DNA of 64,000 nucleotides from contig NZ_LR746496.1 in NCBI RefSeq assembly GCF_902729405.1, positions 1,302,001 to 1,366,000 of the forward strand, written 5' to 3'. How positions within the stretch are numbered: the stretch's first letter is position 1; the number at the start of each line of letters is the position of its first letter. Shown here piece after piece: positions 1 through 45,378 of the stretch. Position numbers and translations under genes: made by a program. Source of the stretch: Acididesulfobacillus acetoxydans. GTDB taxonomy: Bacteria; Bacillota; Desulfitobacteriia; Desulfitobacteriales; Desulfitobacteriaceae. The notes under the pieces were generated by a model, which saw only the letters and a list, made by a program, of their open reading frames with translations, had not been told where the DNA came from and did no database searches.

Positions 1-24
1 CGCCGAAGCCGCTTATCCCAAAAT
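1..24 (+). repeat. fragment of the dispersed multi-hairpin element
   Basis: These bases match the interior of the longer copy near 17263-17286 (core GAAGCCGC, then TATCCCAAAAT) with one mismatch. The left part, if any, is outside the window. It points toward the thiolase gene, as the longer copies point toward their downstream genes. Confidence 0.5.
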
Positions 25-48
25 GATACCAAACGGAGGAAAACAGAG

Positions 49-1236: not shown

Positions 1237-1269
1237 CGATGTTCAGCTTAAGCTGAACGAGTTCACTCC
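1237..1269 (-). repeat. fragment of the dispersed element (module 1 palindrome)
   Basis: Ten bases after the thiolase stop lies the palindrome TTCAGCTTAAGCTGAA flanked by GTGAACTCG and CATCG (read on the minus strand). This is the 5' module of the element seen at 17190, 20379 and 45260. Confidence 0.55.
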
Positions 1270-17189: not shown

Positions 17190-17411
17190 GGAAGTGAACT
17201 CGTTCAACTAAAGTTGAACATCGAGACTTCGGTGACGAAAGTCTCCAGTGGAGAGTTTCGCCGAAGCCGCCTATCCCAAAATTACGCTTCGCGGCGAAGG
17301 CGTCATTGTCCGGTGGACAATGACGGCCGAAGGCTGAGTCTACCCCCACCGAAGCAACGGGTAACCGCTCCCACTTGCAGAAGTGGGAGTCTCACGGTTG
17401 GATGAAAGGGA
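17190..17411 (+). ncRNA. HEARO/omega-RNA-like multi-hairpin element, copy A
   Basis: Longest copy of a dispersed element. Module 1 is the palindrome TTCAACTAAAGTTGAA. Module 2 holds several stems: GAGACTT with AAGTCTC; a GTCATTGTCC/GGACAATGAC hairpin; then GAGTCTACCCCCACCGAAGC; a 3' hairpin CTCCCACTTGCAGAAGTGGG; and a tail ending GGTTGGATGA. Copy B (39168-39362) shares the module 2 blocks in the same order with compensating changes in stems, which indicates a structured RNA or a mobile element. From memory, HEARO RNAs, the guide RNAs of IscB elements, are followed by ATGA or GTGA, as here. No IscB gene is present. An IS200/IS605 relic is the alternative. Confidence 0.5.
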
Positions 17412-17690
17412 CGGGGAAGTGGAGAAACCGTCTGCGGAAGTGAACTCGGAAGTTAGCGGAGCGGGCGAGGAACGGGTGCAGTCTGAGCAAGGGCGAAAGC
17501 AGGAAGGATCAGGAAAAGCAAGGATCAGGAAGAAAATGGACGGGAAGAGAAAAGATCGGGAAGAGAAAAGATCTAAAGGAGCAAGGATCAGGAAAAGCAA
17601 GGATCAGGAAGAGAAAGGACCAGGAAGAGCAAGGATCGGGAGGAGAAAGGATTAAGAAGAGAAAGGACCAGGAAAAGGGGAGGGATAGCT
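17412..17690 (+). repeat. GA-rich low-complexity tract before the cyclase gene
   Basis: Almost wholly purine on the plus strand, built from variants of AGGATCAGGAAAAGCA and AAGAGAAAGGA. It ends in the ribosome site of the next gene. No significant ORF of its own. Confidence 0.7.
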
Positions 17691-20331: not shown

Positions 20332-20654
20332 AAGAAATAGCTGCCGCGGTTCCCAGTCTCCGTTTCCTTGAGGAGCGGCGATGTTCAGCTTTAGCTGAAC
20401 GAGTTCACTTCCTGCGCCGCTTGCTTGGCCCGGAAGAAGAAGTTTTTGACCGTGCTCAAGAGGCTTTTTCAGCGGCTTGCCGTTAAGGACACAGGCCTTA
20501 AGGAAAAGCTTCTCCAGATGTGTCAGGCTCTGCAAGCGGAAGGACGGCTGCTTGCGGGAACGGTGCGAGAAGAAGTGCTGAAGCGGCTTCGCTAAGTATC
20601 TCAGGTACTGTGAATGAGGCGGAAAGAAGCAGGACGGTTAAGAGGTGGGCGAGT
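20332..20654. other. region between panB and the sigma-54 regulator, with an element fragment
   Basis: Positions 20379-20412 (minus) carry module 1 of the dispersed element (TTCAGCTAAAGCTGAA with GTGAACTCG before and CATCG after). The rest shows no gene. An in-frame extension of the regulator runs back through it but lacks protein-like sequence. Confidence 0.45.
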
Positions 20655-36089: not shown

Positions 36090-36272
36090 AGGGAACATCG
36101 CTGCCGGCGGCAACAACTGCATAAGATGAAAAGTTCAAGCGCTGAGTTCTCTGTCAGAGAAACGGGGGAACCAAAATTTCCGGGGTGAGTCCACGCGGGT
36201 ACTTGATTCCGTGTGGTAGGGTTATCTTTCGACCCGAACCCGTCAGCTAACTTCGTAAGCGTTGAAAGGAGA
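36090..36272 (+). ncRNA. cyclic di-AMP riboswitch (ydaO-yuaA class)
   Basis: The conserved blocks occur in order: GCGCTGAG, GTCAGAGAAACGGGGGAACC, GGGGTGAGTCC, GGTAGGGTTAT, CGACCCGAACCCGTCAGCTA and CTTCGTAAGCG. This matches the ydaO class, which binds c-di-AMP and usually turns off cell-wall hydrolase or osmolyte transporter genes. A good promoter is just upstream and a terminator 44 bases downstream. No standard target gene follows directly; the next gene is YopX-like at 36490. The betaine-type transporter lies upstream, not downstream. Confidence 0.92.
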
Positions 36273-36315
36273 TGTAGAGGCTGGGTTTAGCTTTTATATG
36301 CCTGTGTACCTTTTG

Positions 36316-38184: not shown

Positions 38185-39147
38185 TTACGGTGCCTTTCCT
38201 GCCGGAAGTCCTCCTGCAGCCGTGGCGTATTCGACGGCGTTGAGGACCGCTCTTTCGACGGCGTCCACCGTGGCGGCGGCCAAAGCGAGGATTTCTCCGT
38301 GCCATTCACCTTTGACCTTACCGGTGGCCAGGGCGAAGAGGGTGTCCCCGTCGAAGAGGGTATGGACCGGCCGGATGGTCCGGGCCAGGCCGTCATGAGC
38401 CAGCTTGGCCAGGTGATTGGCTTGCTCCACACTCAGATCGGCGTCTGTTGCCACCACGCCGATGGTCGTGTTCGTCGCCCCCAAGATGGATTGCCCGCTT
38501 CCTTTCTGCACTTCCCGAGCCGTGTTGACGAAACGGCCGGTAAGGGGGTGGCGTGTGCCCGCCAGGATGGTGTTGTCTTGCGGGCGAACGACGTCGCCAA
38601 AAGCATTGACGACGATCAAGGCCCCGACTATGGCCTTGCCCACCCGGATACTGGCTGTACCCAGCCCGGATTTCGTGGCTTGCCCCGGACCGAAGAGCTT
38701 GCCCACAGAAGCTCCGGTTCCGGCCCCCACACATCCTTGAGCCACTTCACCCGTTCCGGCAGTCTGGCAAGCCTGATAGCCCATGGCTTCATCCGGCCAG
38801 GCGACTTGACCGAGAGGCAGATCAAAAATAACCGCTCCCGGGACGATGGGCACTTTGGTGACGCCGACATCATAGCCGATTCCCCGTTCCCAGAGGTAGC
38901 GCATGACGCCGGCAGCCGCATTCAGCCCGAAGGCGCTGCCTCCCGCCAGGAGAATGGCCTGCGCTTTGTCCACGAGGGTAGCCGGGCGGCAGAGATCCGT
39001 CTCCCGCGTGCCGGGGGCCGAACCGCGGACATCGACTCCGACCACAGCCCCCTCGCGGCAGATGATGACCGTGCAGCCCGTCAAAGCGTCACGGTTCTCG
39101 GCCTGTCCGACTTCGATTCCGGACACGTCGGTGATGGCATTGAACAC
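38185..39147 (-). CDS. P1/S58-family peptidase (DmpA-like aminopeptidase/esterase)
   Basis: 320 residues of the S58 family, whose members include L-aminopeptidase D-amidase/esterase DmpA and beta-peptidyl aminopeptidases. The precursor cleaves itself to expose a catalytic Ser or Thr. Here the site lies in GATNTTIGVVATDA (about residue 230). GCTVIICREGAVVGVDVRG, LLAGGSAFGLNAA and GCVGAGTGASVGK are conserved. The GTG start has GAGGGTGAT seven bases upstream. Some relatives act on beta-alanine-containing peptides, which would fit the nearby beta-alanine genes, but that link is inference. The 3' end of element copy B lies about 20 bases before the start, on the same strand. Confidence 0.9.
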   Translation of the reverse strand: MFNAITDVSGIEVGQAENRDALTGCTVIICREGAVVGVDVRGSAPGTRETDLCRPATLVDKAQAILLAGGSAFGLNAAAGVMRYLWERGIGYDVGVTKVPIVPGAVIFDLPLGQVAWPDEAMGYQACQTAGTGEVAQGCVGAGTGASVGKLFGPGQATKSGLGTASIRVGKAIVGALIVVNAFGDVVRPQDNTILAGTRHPLTGRFVNTAREVQKGSGQSILGATNTTIGVVATDADLSVEQANHLAKLAHDGLARTIRPVHTLFDGDTLFALATGKVKGEWHGEILALAAATVDAVERAVLNAVEYATAAGGLPAGKAP

Positions 39148-39167
39148 GAGATCACCCTCTTTTTTTT

Positions 39168-39362
39168 AATCCAATCGCAAGACTCCTACTTCTACAAGTG
39201 GGAGTGGGTCCCACGTACCCTGCTTCGGTGGGGGTAGACTCAGCCTTTGGCCGTTATTGTCCACCGGACGGTCACGCCTTCGGCGTGATCGTAATCATCA
39301 TTGGCAGTGTCCCAGTGGCGATAGTCTCCACTGGAGACTATCGCCACCGAAGACATTCTCAC
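39168..39362 (-). ncRNA. HEARO/omega-RNA-like multi-hairpin element, copy B
   Basis: Read on the minus strand it has the same order as copy A: AGTCTCCAGTGGAGACT, a hairpin with CGCCGAAGGCG, CCGGTGGACAATAACGG, CTGAGTCTACCCCCACCGAA, the 3' hairpin CTCCCACTTGTAGAAGTAGG, and a tail GATTGGATTA. Module 1 is absent. It lies in the leader of the S58 peptidase gene. Confidence 0.5.
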
Positions 39363-42113: not shown

Positions 42114-43366
42114 TTAGGCAAGCCATTTTTTTCTGAAGTTCCGGCCAATACCGAGTGAACCGATGTAGTCCGCGTTCACGTCTTTGACGCCACAGGTCGG
42201 GCACTTGGCGTGAGCCACGCCTTGGTAACGCGTGAGTGTACCCCACAGTAGGGGCATTCTTTAGATGTATTCCTGGGACTGACCCGGTTGACCACAATCC
42301 CTTCGTGCAGCGCCTTATACCGGGTATACTTGACAATCCGCCCTTTGACCCAGAAGATAAATTTCTGGTTGAGCCGGTGAGACTTAGTTCCCTTGCTGGG
42401 CTTGAGGTTTGTTAAGTGCTCAAAGACGATGGTTTTAGCTCCGTGCTTTTTGGCAAACTCCACAATGGCCCTCGAAACCCGGTGTGCCACATCATCGTTG
42501 AAGTTGCCAATTTTATCCCAAAGGTCTGCCGCAAAGCGTTCCCCTTCGGGAATCACCCGGGTCTGTTTCTGAAGTCTCACAACTTTCTCAAGATAGCCCT
42601 TCCTAAGATGATTGTCCTCACCACCCGATATAACCTTAGTGGCTAAGACTCGACCTTTCCTATCCTGAATCGTCATGACGAGATGGTGGTTGATCCCTAA
42701 GTCCACGCAGCACATTCTGAAGTCGGTCTTTCCCACTCTGACCTGGACACTCTCCAACTTTACCGCTTTTCTCGGCAGCACTACCGGTACGTGTAACTGC
42801 CAGCCGCCCTGTTTATGGATGAGCATGGGGGTTCCCGCCTCATACCCAGCCGGCACAATCAGGGGTTGCAAGAGCACGGCTTTCCGGTACGCGTAGCTTT
42901 TACCGGTCCAGACTTTGAACAGGACATGGTGCGCATCCAGGATTTTAATCTCCGTTCCGTAATAAGTGAGCCAGTTGTTTCCGACCCCCGGAAAAAGCGG
43001 AGGATGTTCTTTAAACACAACCTCCTTTTTCCCTTGGCGCACTCTGACCTCGTTTTTCGCTGAGACCTTGCTTTTATGCTCCTGCCAGCGGTTGTAACGG
43101 GTAAGCCAGGAACAGGCTTCTCCATAGGCTTCCGCTATCGCGGCCCGCCGCATCCCGGAAGGGTAACGGGGAAACACTTCGTCGAAGGGGTAGAGCGGAT
43201 GAGGATTGTCTGCGCTCCGATGTGTTAAATGCTCTGCCGCATGAAGCCAGTCAGACACCCCGAGGAGTTCCTGATGTTCTTGAAACACGTGCAGAAAATA
43301 GTCCAGCACCTCCCGATACTGCCCGGTCGTGGCTGTGAGCAGAATACGGGTATCCTCGGGTACCAC
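42114..43366 (-). pseudogene. tnpB: TnpB (IS200/IS605 accessory nuclease), frameshifted
   Basis: TnpB-family RNA-guided nuclease of about 415 residues when repaired. RuvC-like residues: Asp in CVDLGINHHLVM, Glu in IVFEHLTNLKP, and the final Asp in VNADYIGSLGIG, which lies in a different frame. The zinc finger is split: CPYCG is in the main frame, but CPTCGVKDVNAD continues only after a +1 shift near 42215-42240, so the main frame ends early at a TGA. No TnpA transposase is adjacent. It is probably inactive as a nuclease but could be a recent decay. The element spans about 41895-43380, and its left end coincides with the second 79-base repeat. Confidence 0.82.
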
Positions 43367-45081: not shown

Positions 45082-45259
45082 AGAACGTTCAAGCCTCCAG
45101 TTTCTCCGCCTTTTAACATGACTTGCGATTTGCCCAAGCGTGGGACTCCCATTCCCGTAGATCCTCTGCTCCCGGGATGGCCACGTTTTTCAGCCGGCTT
45201 GAACTTCCCTGACTAATATCCGCAGGTCCCCATGGAGAATATTAATCCCTGCATTTTCA

Positions 45260-45378
45260 TCCACTCGTGAGACTCCCACTTCTACAAGTGGGAGTGGTGC
45301 CCCGTACTCCGCTTCGGTGGGGGTAGACTCCCTCACCGAAGTCTCGATGTTCAGCTTTAGCTGAACCAGTTCACCCCG
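45260..45378 (-). ncRNA. HEARO/omega-RNA-like element, copy C (internally deleted)
   Basis: On the minus strand: GTTCAGCTAAAGCTGAAC, CATCGAGACTTCGGTGA, then directly GAGTCTACCCCCACCGAAGC, the 3' hairpin CTCCCACTTGTAGAAGTGGG, and the tail GAGTGGATGA. It joins module 1 to the 3' part of module 2 and lacks the middle hairpins of copies A and B. It lies 180 bases upstream of the PucR start. The remaining intergenic bases to 45612 hold no gene. Confidence 0.5.

Follow-up and report, generated by a model that had tools for sequence, protein, structure and literature searches.

A modular, gene-less hairpin element dispersed in Acididesulfobacillus acetoxydans and other Bacillota: a probable single-strand transposon of the palindrome-associated kind

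Results

Copies and fragments in the 64-kb window

The window, the whole 64,000-nucleotide stretch of the Acididesulfobacillus acetoxydans genome analysed here, contains three larger copies and three fragments of one repeated element. Copy A (17194..17401, plus strand as shown) is a complete, expanded element of 208 bp, GTGAAC...TTGG, whose putative transposon strand is the reverse complement of the strand shown. Its near-terminal palindrome P1, GTTCAAC-TAAA-GTTGAAC (17202..17219, +), marks the right end in the IS605 orientation and lies 8 nt from the end GAGTTCAC. The arms of P2, CTTCGGTG...ACCGAAG (17227..17355, +), enclose extra hairpin modules with AGT and GGT loops. The second near-terminal palindrome, P3, CTCCCACTT-GCAG-AAGTGGGAG (17368..17389, +), marks the left end in the IS605 orientation and is followed, outside the element, by the target motif ATGAA (17402..17406, +; TTCAT on the reverse strand, that is TTNAT). 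Purine-rich degenerate repeats (AAGGATCAGGAAGAGAAAGGACCAGGAAGAG...) occupy 17440-17680, immediately downstream of copy A.

Copy C (45261..45374, minus strand) is a complete P1-P2-P3 core of 114 bp, which scores 127.7 bits and adjoins its target ATGAA at 45256-45260. Copy B (39171..~39371, minus strand) is a 5'-truncated expanded element with the target ATTAA at 39166-39170; a gene that starts at 39147 (minus strand) lies about 24 bp downstream. Two solo P1 ends lie at 1237..1266 (minus strand; CGAT-GTTCAGC...GCTGAAC-GAGTTCAC) and 20379..20408 (minus strand), and an internal-module fragment, CGCCGAAGCCGCTTATCCCAAAATGATA, is cut by the window edge at 1..28 (+). For copies A and C the boundaries are those established on sister copies, since none of the seven empty sites described below belongs to a window copy.

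Two further features of the window are a c-di-AMP riboswitch (RF00379, 95.7 bits, 36130-36276, +), the sole Rfam match there at the gathering score, and a TnpB gene (42176-43366, minus strand; 396 aa, PF07282 match at its end). The element does not flank the TnpB gene, and no tnpA was seen near it in the gene lists examined.

The original prediction, made from the letters alone, had likened the copies to HEARO or omega RNAs that lack their nuclease. The copies and the fragments at 1, 1237 and 20379 are real, and their blocks follow the order it gave, far beyond chance. Some details changed: copy A carries TTCAACTAAAGTTGAA, a pair-preserving variant of the palindrome quoted as common to all, and copy B, which begins within an internal module, has no P1 palindrome. 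Those at 1237 and 20379, among the fragments, can now be identified as solo P1 ends.

Distribution and genomic context

With copy A as the query, blastn returned 61 matches in the genome (4.52 Mb, one contig) and 51 in the congener Peptococcaceae bacterium CEB3. Many of the 61 are parts of a shared copy, and together they represent dozens of loci. A covariance model added core copies that blastn with copy A did not list. A degenerate pattern of the 5' end occurs in at least 117 stretches of species genomes, and the genera listed among them include Desulfosporosinus, Desulfotruncus, Acetivibrio, Herbivorax, Tepidibacillus and others; viral contigs and plasmids gave no match. Within the phylum (Bacillota), the element model matches 24 of 398 genomes from 21 genera, in a patchy and often multicopy manner. 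Judged from the match table, 16 of these are strong and 11 both strong and multicopy; some of the 24 score weakly with the model and may be look-alikes of IS605 ends.

The complete copies are mainly intergenic: 102 of 107 lie outside open reading frames of at least 150 aa, compared with 34% of random stretches. No orientation bias appeared between chromosome halves in a tally made by eye, with the halves taken without a located origin. Near one copy lies a fluoride riboswitch (L006 1774-1833, minus strand; 33.0 bits, one bit under the gathering score).

Core anatomy and modular hairpins

The core element is about 114 bp long and consists of GTGAACTC, the hairpins P1, P2 and P3, and a terminal GG. 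Its 5' part reads GTGAACTC-P1(GTTCAGC TAAA GCTGAAC)-ATCGAGA-P2(CTTCGGTGGGGG...CCCCCACCGAAG), and the linker after P2 leads to P3(CTCCCACTT GTAG AAGTGGGAG)-TCTCACGATTGG. On the reverse strand the layout is TTNAT|CCAATCGTGAGA-[P3]...[P2]...CGAT-[P1]-GAGTTCAC|. The ends, GTGAAC...GG, form no terminal inverted repeats; palindromes lie near both of them, nearer at the right end. P1 and P3 are unlike in sequence; in IS608 the two end hairpins are identical.

With lengths between 73 and 572 bp, complete copies have no room for a transposase. Most common, and also spread most widely, is the short P1-P2-P3 form; large copies such as A hold additional hairpins between the P2 arms. Recurring modules of the GAATAC type are present in 22 of 42 large copies and in none of 51 small ones. 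A loose pattern locates the 3' arm of P2 in 38 of the 42 large copies and the 5' arm in 25. Copy A is a core with hairpin modules inserted between its P2 arms. Copy C, which had been read as a clean internal deletion of A, is the core form itself, because the short form is the commonest and the modules sit between the P2 arms of large copies. Three very long copies (L062, L005 and L016; 349-400 bp) hold several nested hairpin modules and look like branched trees.

The pair-preserving stem changes first noticed between copies A and B are borne out by 30 diverse core copies. In the hairpins P1-P3, 95.7% of the cells are paired, versus 42-48% after sliding, and 12 pairs covary with both sides changed. 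Both DNA strands fold far better than shuffled sequences (z from -5.7 to -7.4).

Boundaries, target and empty sites

Comparison with CEB3, for which the flanks of 18 copies were joined into a composite, decides the matter. This search for empty sites in relatives, which the original prediction had proposed as a check, gave seven orthologous sites, three of them exact: GAACCGGGA|ATAAAGGC, GTGCCAGA|ATGAACAA and GCGTA|ATGAGCCC. When filled, the three read A-[GTGAAC...GG]-AT.... The other four agree except for slight changes close by: in two of them a few bases next to the junction differ, and the remaining two hold 6-7 extra bases when empty. The insertion thus falls between A and ATNAA, and the target is not duplicated. 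It follows from this comparison that the element is GTGAAC...GG and that the ATGA or ATTA next to it belongs to a pre-existing ATNAA target. The tail formerly described as ending in GGATGA or GGATTA therefore keeps its GG, while the remaining four bases are target sequence, already present at the empty sites.

Alignment of 76 copies shows a sharp element boundary with flat flanks outside it, and no excess of identity between the 5' and 3' flanks at any offset. In 77 copies that were selected with the sequence after TTGG left unconstrained, the following bases are A (59), T (64), any base, A (73) and A (68). On the putative transposon strand the element stands directly 3' of TTNAT.

Discussion

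A probable single-strand transposon, proposed to be served in trans

We suggest that the repeats are copies of a non-autonomous single-stranded DNA transposon of the palindrome-associated transposable element (PATE) kind, and we place the probability of this reading at about 0.84. By their published description, PATEs carry no gene, have a palindrome close to each end but no terminal inverted repeats, and adjoin at the left end a target that is not duplicated (PMC3119063). The rule for IS200/IS605 TnpA is that an element with two hairpins goes in on the 3' side of a short target (PMC7290912), and ISDra2 inserts 3' of TTGAT (PMC2806898). Since the anatomy of the element agrees with these marks and with this rule, we infer transposition of a single strand by a Y1 protein acting in trans; the Y1 chemistry, the strand that is transposed and the identity of the transposase are deduced from this likeness. 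Most likely the mover is an IS200/IS605-type or related enzyme that is encoded elsewhere and acts on single-stranded DNA.

In the model that we propose, a Y1 (HUH) transposase acting in trans would bind the hairpins near both ends of one DNA strand. Its left-end cut would fall directly 3' of TTNAT, its right-end cut after GTTCAC. The strand would then leave as a circle and re-insert 3' of another TTNAT, an event expected to produce neither target duplication nor terminal inverted repeats. Copies would become longer or shorter as the P2 arms come to enclose more or fewer hairpin modules, with the ends unchanged.

None of 81 paired copies holds a transposase gene between its ends; the sole wide pairing, of 1.3 kb, spans a regulator-like ORF. 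The part of the original prediction that called the element mobile, structured and non-autonomous, next to an ATNA motif, holds, and its mechanistic kinship with the Y1/IS605-like transposon group that includes the ISC/HEARO elements also stands. Against the transposon reading, the scan of tnpA/tnpB loci turned up no autonomous parent that shares the element's ends, P1 and P3 are unlike, and the chromosome halves show no orientation bias. The genome's own tnpA/tnpB loci showed no sequence link to the element. One degenerate IS605 of Desulfotruncus ends in hairpin-AGGTTCAC.

Regulatory RNA, omega RNA and MITE

A chromosomally maintained regulatory RNA, or an attenuator-like repeat family that never was a transposon, would account for the intergenic location, the strong folding and the covariation, as well as for the genes within 300 bp on the 3' side, which are co-oriented more often than not (48 versus 21); the gene beyond the end of copy B is one of this kind. 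This last bias may, however, be due only to the A-rich target sites that precede ribosome-binding sites, and the neighbouring genes are unrelated. The precise empty sites in the sister species and the patchy distribution across families argue against maintenance as well. Across 121 matches, 79 stem cells hold G-U and 73 hold A-C, practically the same number, in an alignment that is fitted to the model and in which dead copies decay equally. Nothing therefore points to selection on an RNA strand: the equality shows that the copies are not maintained as RNA and is still compatible with a past RNA function. As the origin of the copies, a regulatory RNA is largely refuted and we consider it very improbable, although some single copies may affect expression.

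We give slightly less credence still to a HEARO-like omega RNA, in which a transcript of the strand shown would carry a guide from its left flank and serve IscB or IsrB in trans, with ATNAA as the TAM. The geometry fits, with a random left flank, a structured element and ATNAA on the right, and IsrB TAMs such as NTGA are published. The trailing ATGA that had been taken as a HEARO sign is, however, a property of the insertion site, common to IS605-type elements read in reverse. The genome does have an IscB with a HEARO, and the element ends share with the 5' end of that HEARO a layout of single strand plus hairpin. This one true HEARO (103.8 bits; L040, genome 3136706-3136985, minus strand) is unrelated to the element in sequence and adjoins the IscB (L224), a 425-aa open frame with an RRXRR match. 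The search for an IscB elsewhere, proposed as a check in the original prediction, thus led to a gene beside its own HEARO; as a partner of the element IscB is rejected, because 7 of 10 carrier genomes lack a match to its RRXRR domain. Moreover, no tested copy matched HEARO, a TnpB-associated RNA or any other Rfam model, even at E<=10, G-U and A-C are equal in the stems, and the element's parts occur in freely varying numbers. The identification as HEARO or omega RNA does not hold.

An MITE of an ordinary DDE insertion sequence, equally short, gene-less, multicopy and intergenic, deserves hardly any belief, as the ends GTGAAC...GG form no terminal inverted repeats, the target is not duplicated and the empty sites refute it.

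Candidate transposases

For the single-strand transposon, a REP-associated-type Y1 protein is our favoured candidate and an IS200/IS605 TnpA the second choice. Among the 398 genomes, REP-type Y1 proteins (alignment A2, E<=1e-30) are present in 114, namely in 8 of the 11 multicopy carriers and 106 of the 387 others (p=0.003), whereas IS200 TnpA (NF033573), also present in 114, occurs in 3 of 11 and 111 of 387 (p=0.65); these counts ignore phylogeny, and the cut-offs for 'strong' and 'multicopy' were set after the element table was known. We treat the association with REP-type Y1 as a lead, not a proof; IS200 TnpA shows no association that would name it as the partner by co-occurrence.

The copy-rich Desulfosporosinus sp. 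FKB has REP-type Y1 proteins only (by Pfam Y1_Tnp). A Herbivorax copy directly adjoins the stop codon of a REP-type Y1 gene. This is the one clear case of such flanking in 30 loci, and the rarity weighs against the candidate. So does the genome of the window, which has IS200-type tnpA genes and gave no match to REP-type Y1 at E<=1e-10, so that its copies may be relics. A single clade of carrier REP-type Y1 proteins tied to the element was sought in the Y1 tree and is not seen there. In an enlarged tree, five short Y1 proteins (185-222 aa) come out as a supported clade, and each of them belongs to a carrier genome; the sequences were added and the group defined once the first tree was known, which makes the clustering count no independent test. 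The short clade is thus only a lead as the partner of the element, and non-carrier genomes may hold further members. Judged by eye, the neighbour of the short REP-type Y1 gene (L371, L374, L375) is comM/yifB-like in two genomes, while a third has a dprA-like stretch there.

REP-like sequences were not found near subclasses 2.1 and 2.3 of the REP-associated-type Y1 proteins (PMC6006769). Tentatively, and with the odds still against it, the element might be the substrate of a REP-associated-type Y1 group that has no known DNA substrate, and a domesticated Y1 might spread a modular hairpin transposon across Bacillota. If so, the spreading protein would be a domesticated one that stands, in some genomes, beside comM-like or dprA-like genes.

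Significance

Our search of the published work found no description of the element family, which is weak evidence given its limited reach into the subscription literature, and we know of no name for it. What we describe is a real, widespread and apparently unnamed family of transposase-free, single-strand-type elements with defined boundaries and target, hosted by anaerobes with dozens of copies in their intergenic regions. Its modular growth between fixed ends offers a natural test of cargo tolerance in single-strand transposition, and it is a candidate substrate for REP-type Y1 proteins that have none. For annotation it carries a warning: covarying hairpins beside ATGA are insufficient to call a HEARO or omega RNA.

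Comparison with known systems

HEARO/ISC elements (RF02033) resemble the element in overall geometry, with an ATGA-like sequence on the 3' side, and differ from it in sequence and structure, in the missing model match and in their IscB, with which the element is not associated. The BOX elements of pneumococcus (PMC3049150) are likewise intergenic and structured, with fixed outer modules and a variable number of inner hairpin modules; their sequence is unrelated and, unlike here, their ends are reported as IS-like terminal inverted repeats (PMC3049150).

REP sequences and REPINs are intergenic palindromes present in many copies, for which a Y1 protein encoded once, TnpA-REP or RAYT, is the presumed mover (PMC6006769, PMC8266576), and the enrichment of such Y1 genes in multicopy carriers is a point in common. 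Unlike them, the element has no GT[AG]G foot, its conserved end being GAGTTCAC; it is 114 bp or more in length with three hairpins, and it rarely flanks a Y1 gene at the 30 loci compared.

ISDra2 (PMC2806898) shares a pentanucleotide target, which is TTNAT for the element, and subterminal hairpins at both ends, as judged by description; unlike the element it is autonomous, with tnpA and tnpB.

In these features the element closely resembles the PATEs of Haloquadratum (PMC3119063) and the ends-only elements of IS200/IS605, for example in Halanaerobium (PMC7290912). They too lack terminal inverted repeats and target duplication, have palindromes near the ends, with more space at the left end than at the right, are of a size without transposase and adjoin, in transposon orientation, a 4-6 bp target at the 5' end. 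We claim a likeness of anatomy, not of sequence. Unlike them, the element has had no IS605 with matching ends found for it and holds modular internal hairpins, and its conservation extends over many genera of Bacillota, in families unrelated to one another.
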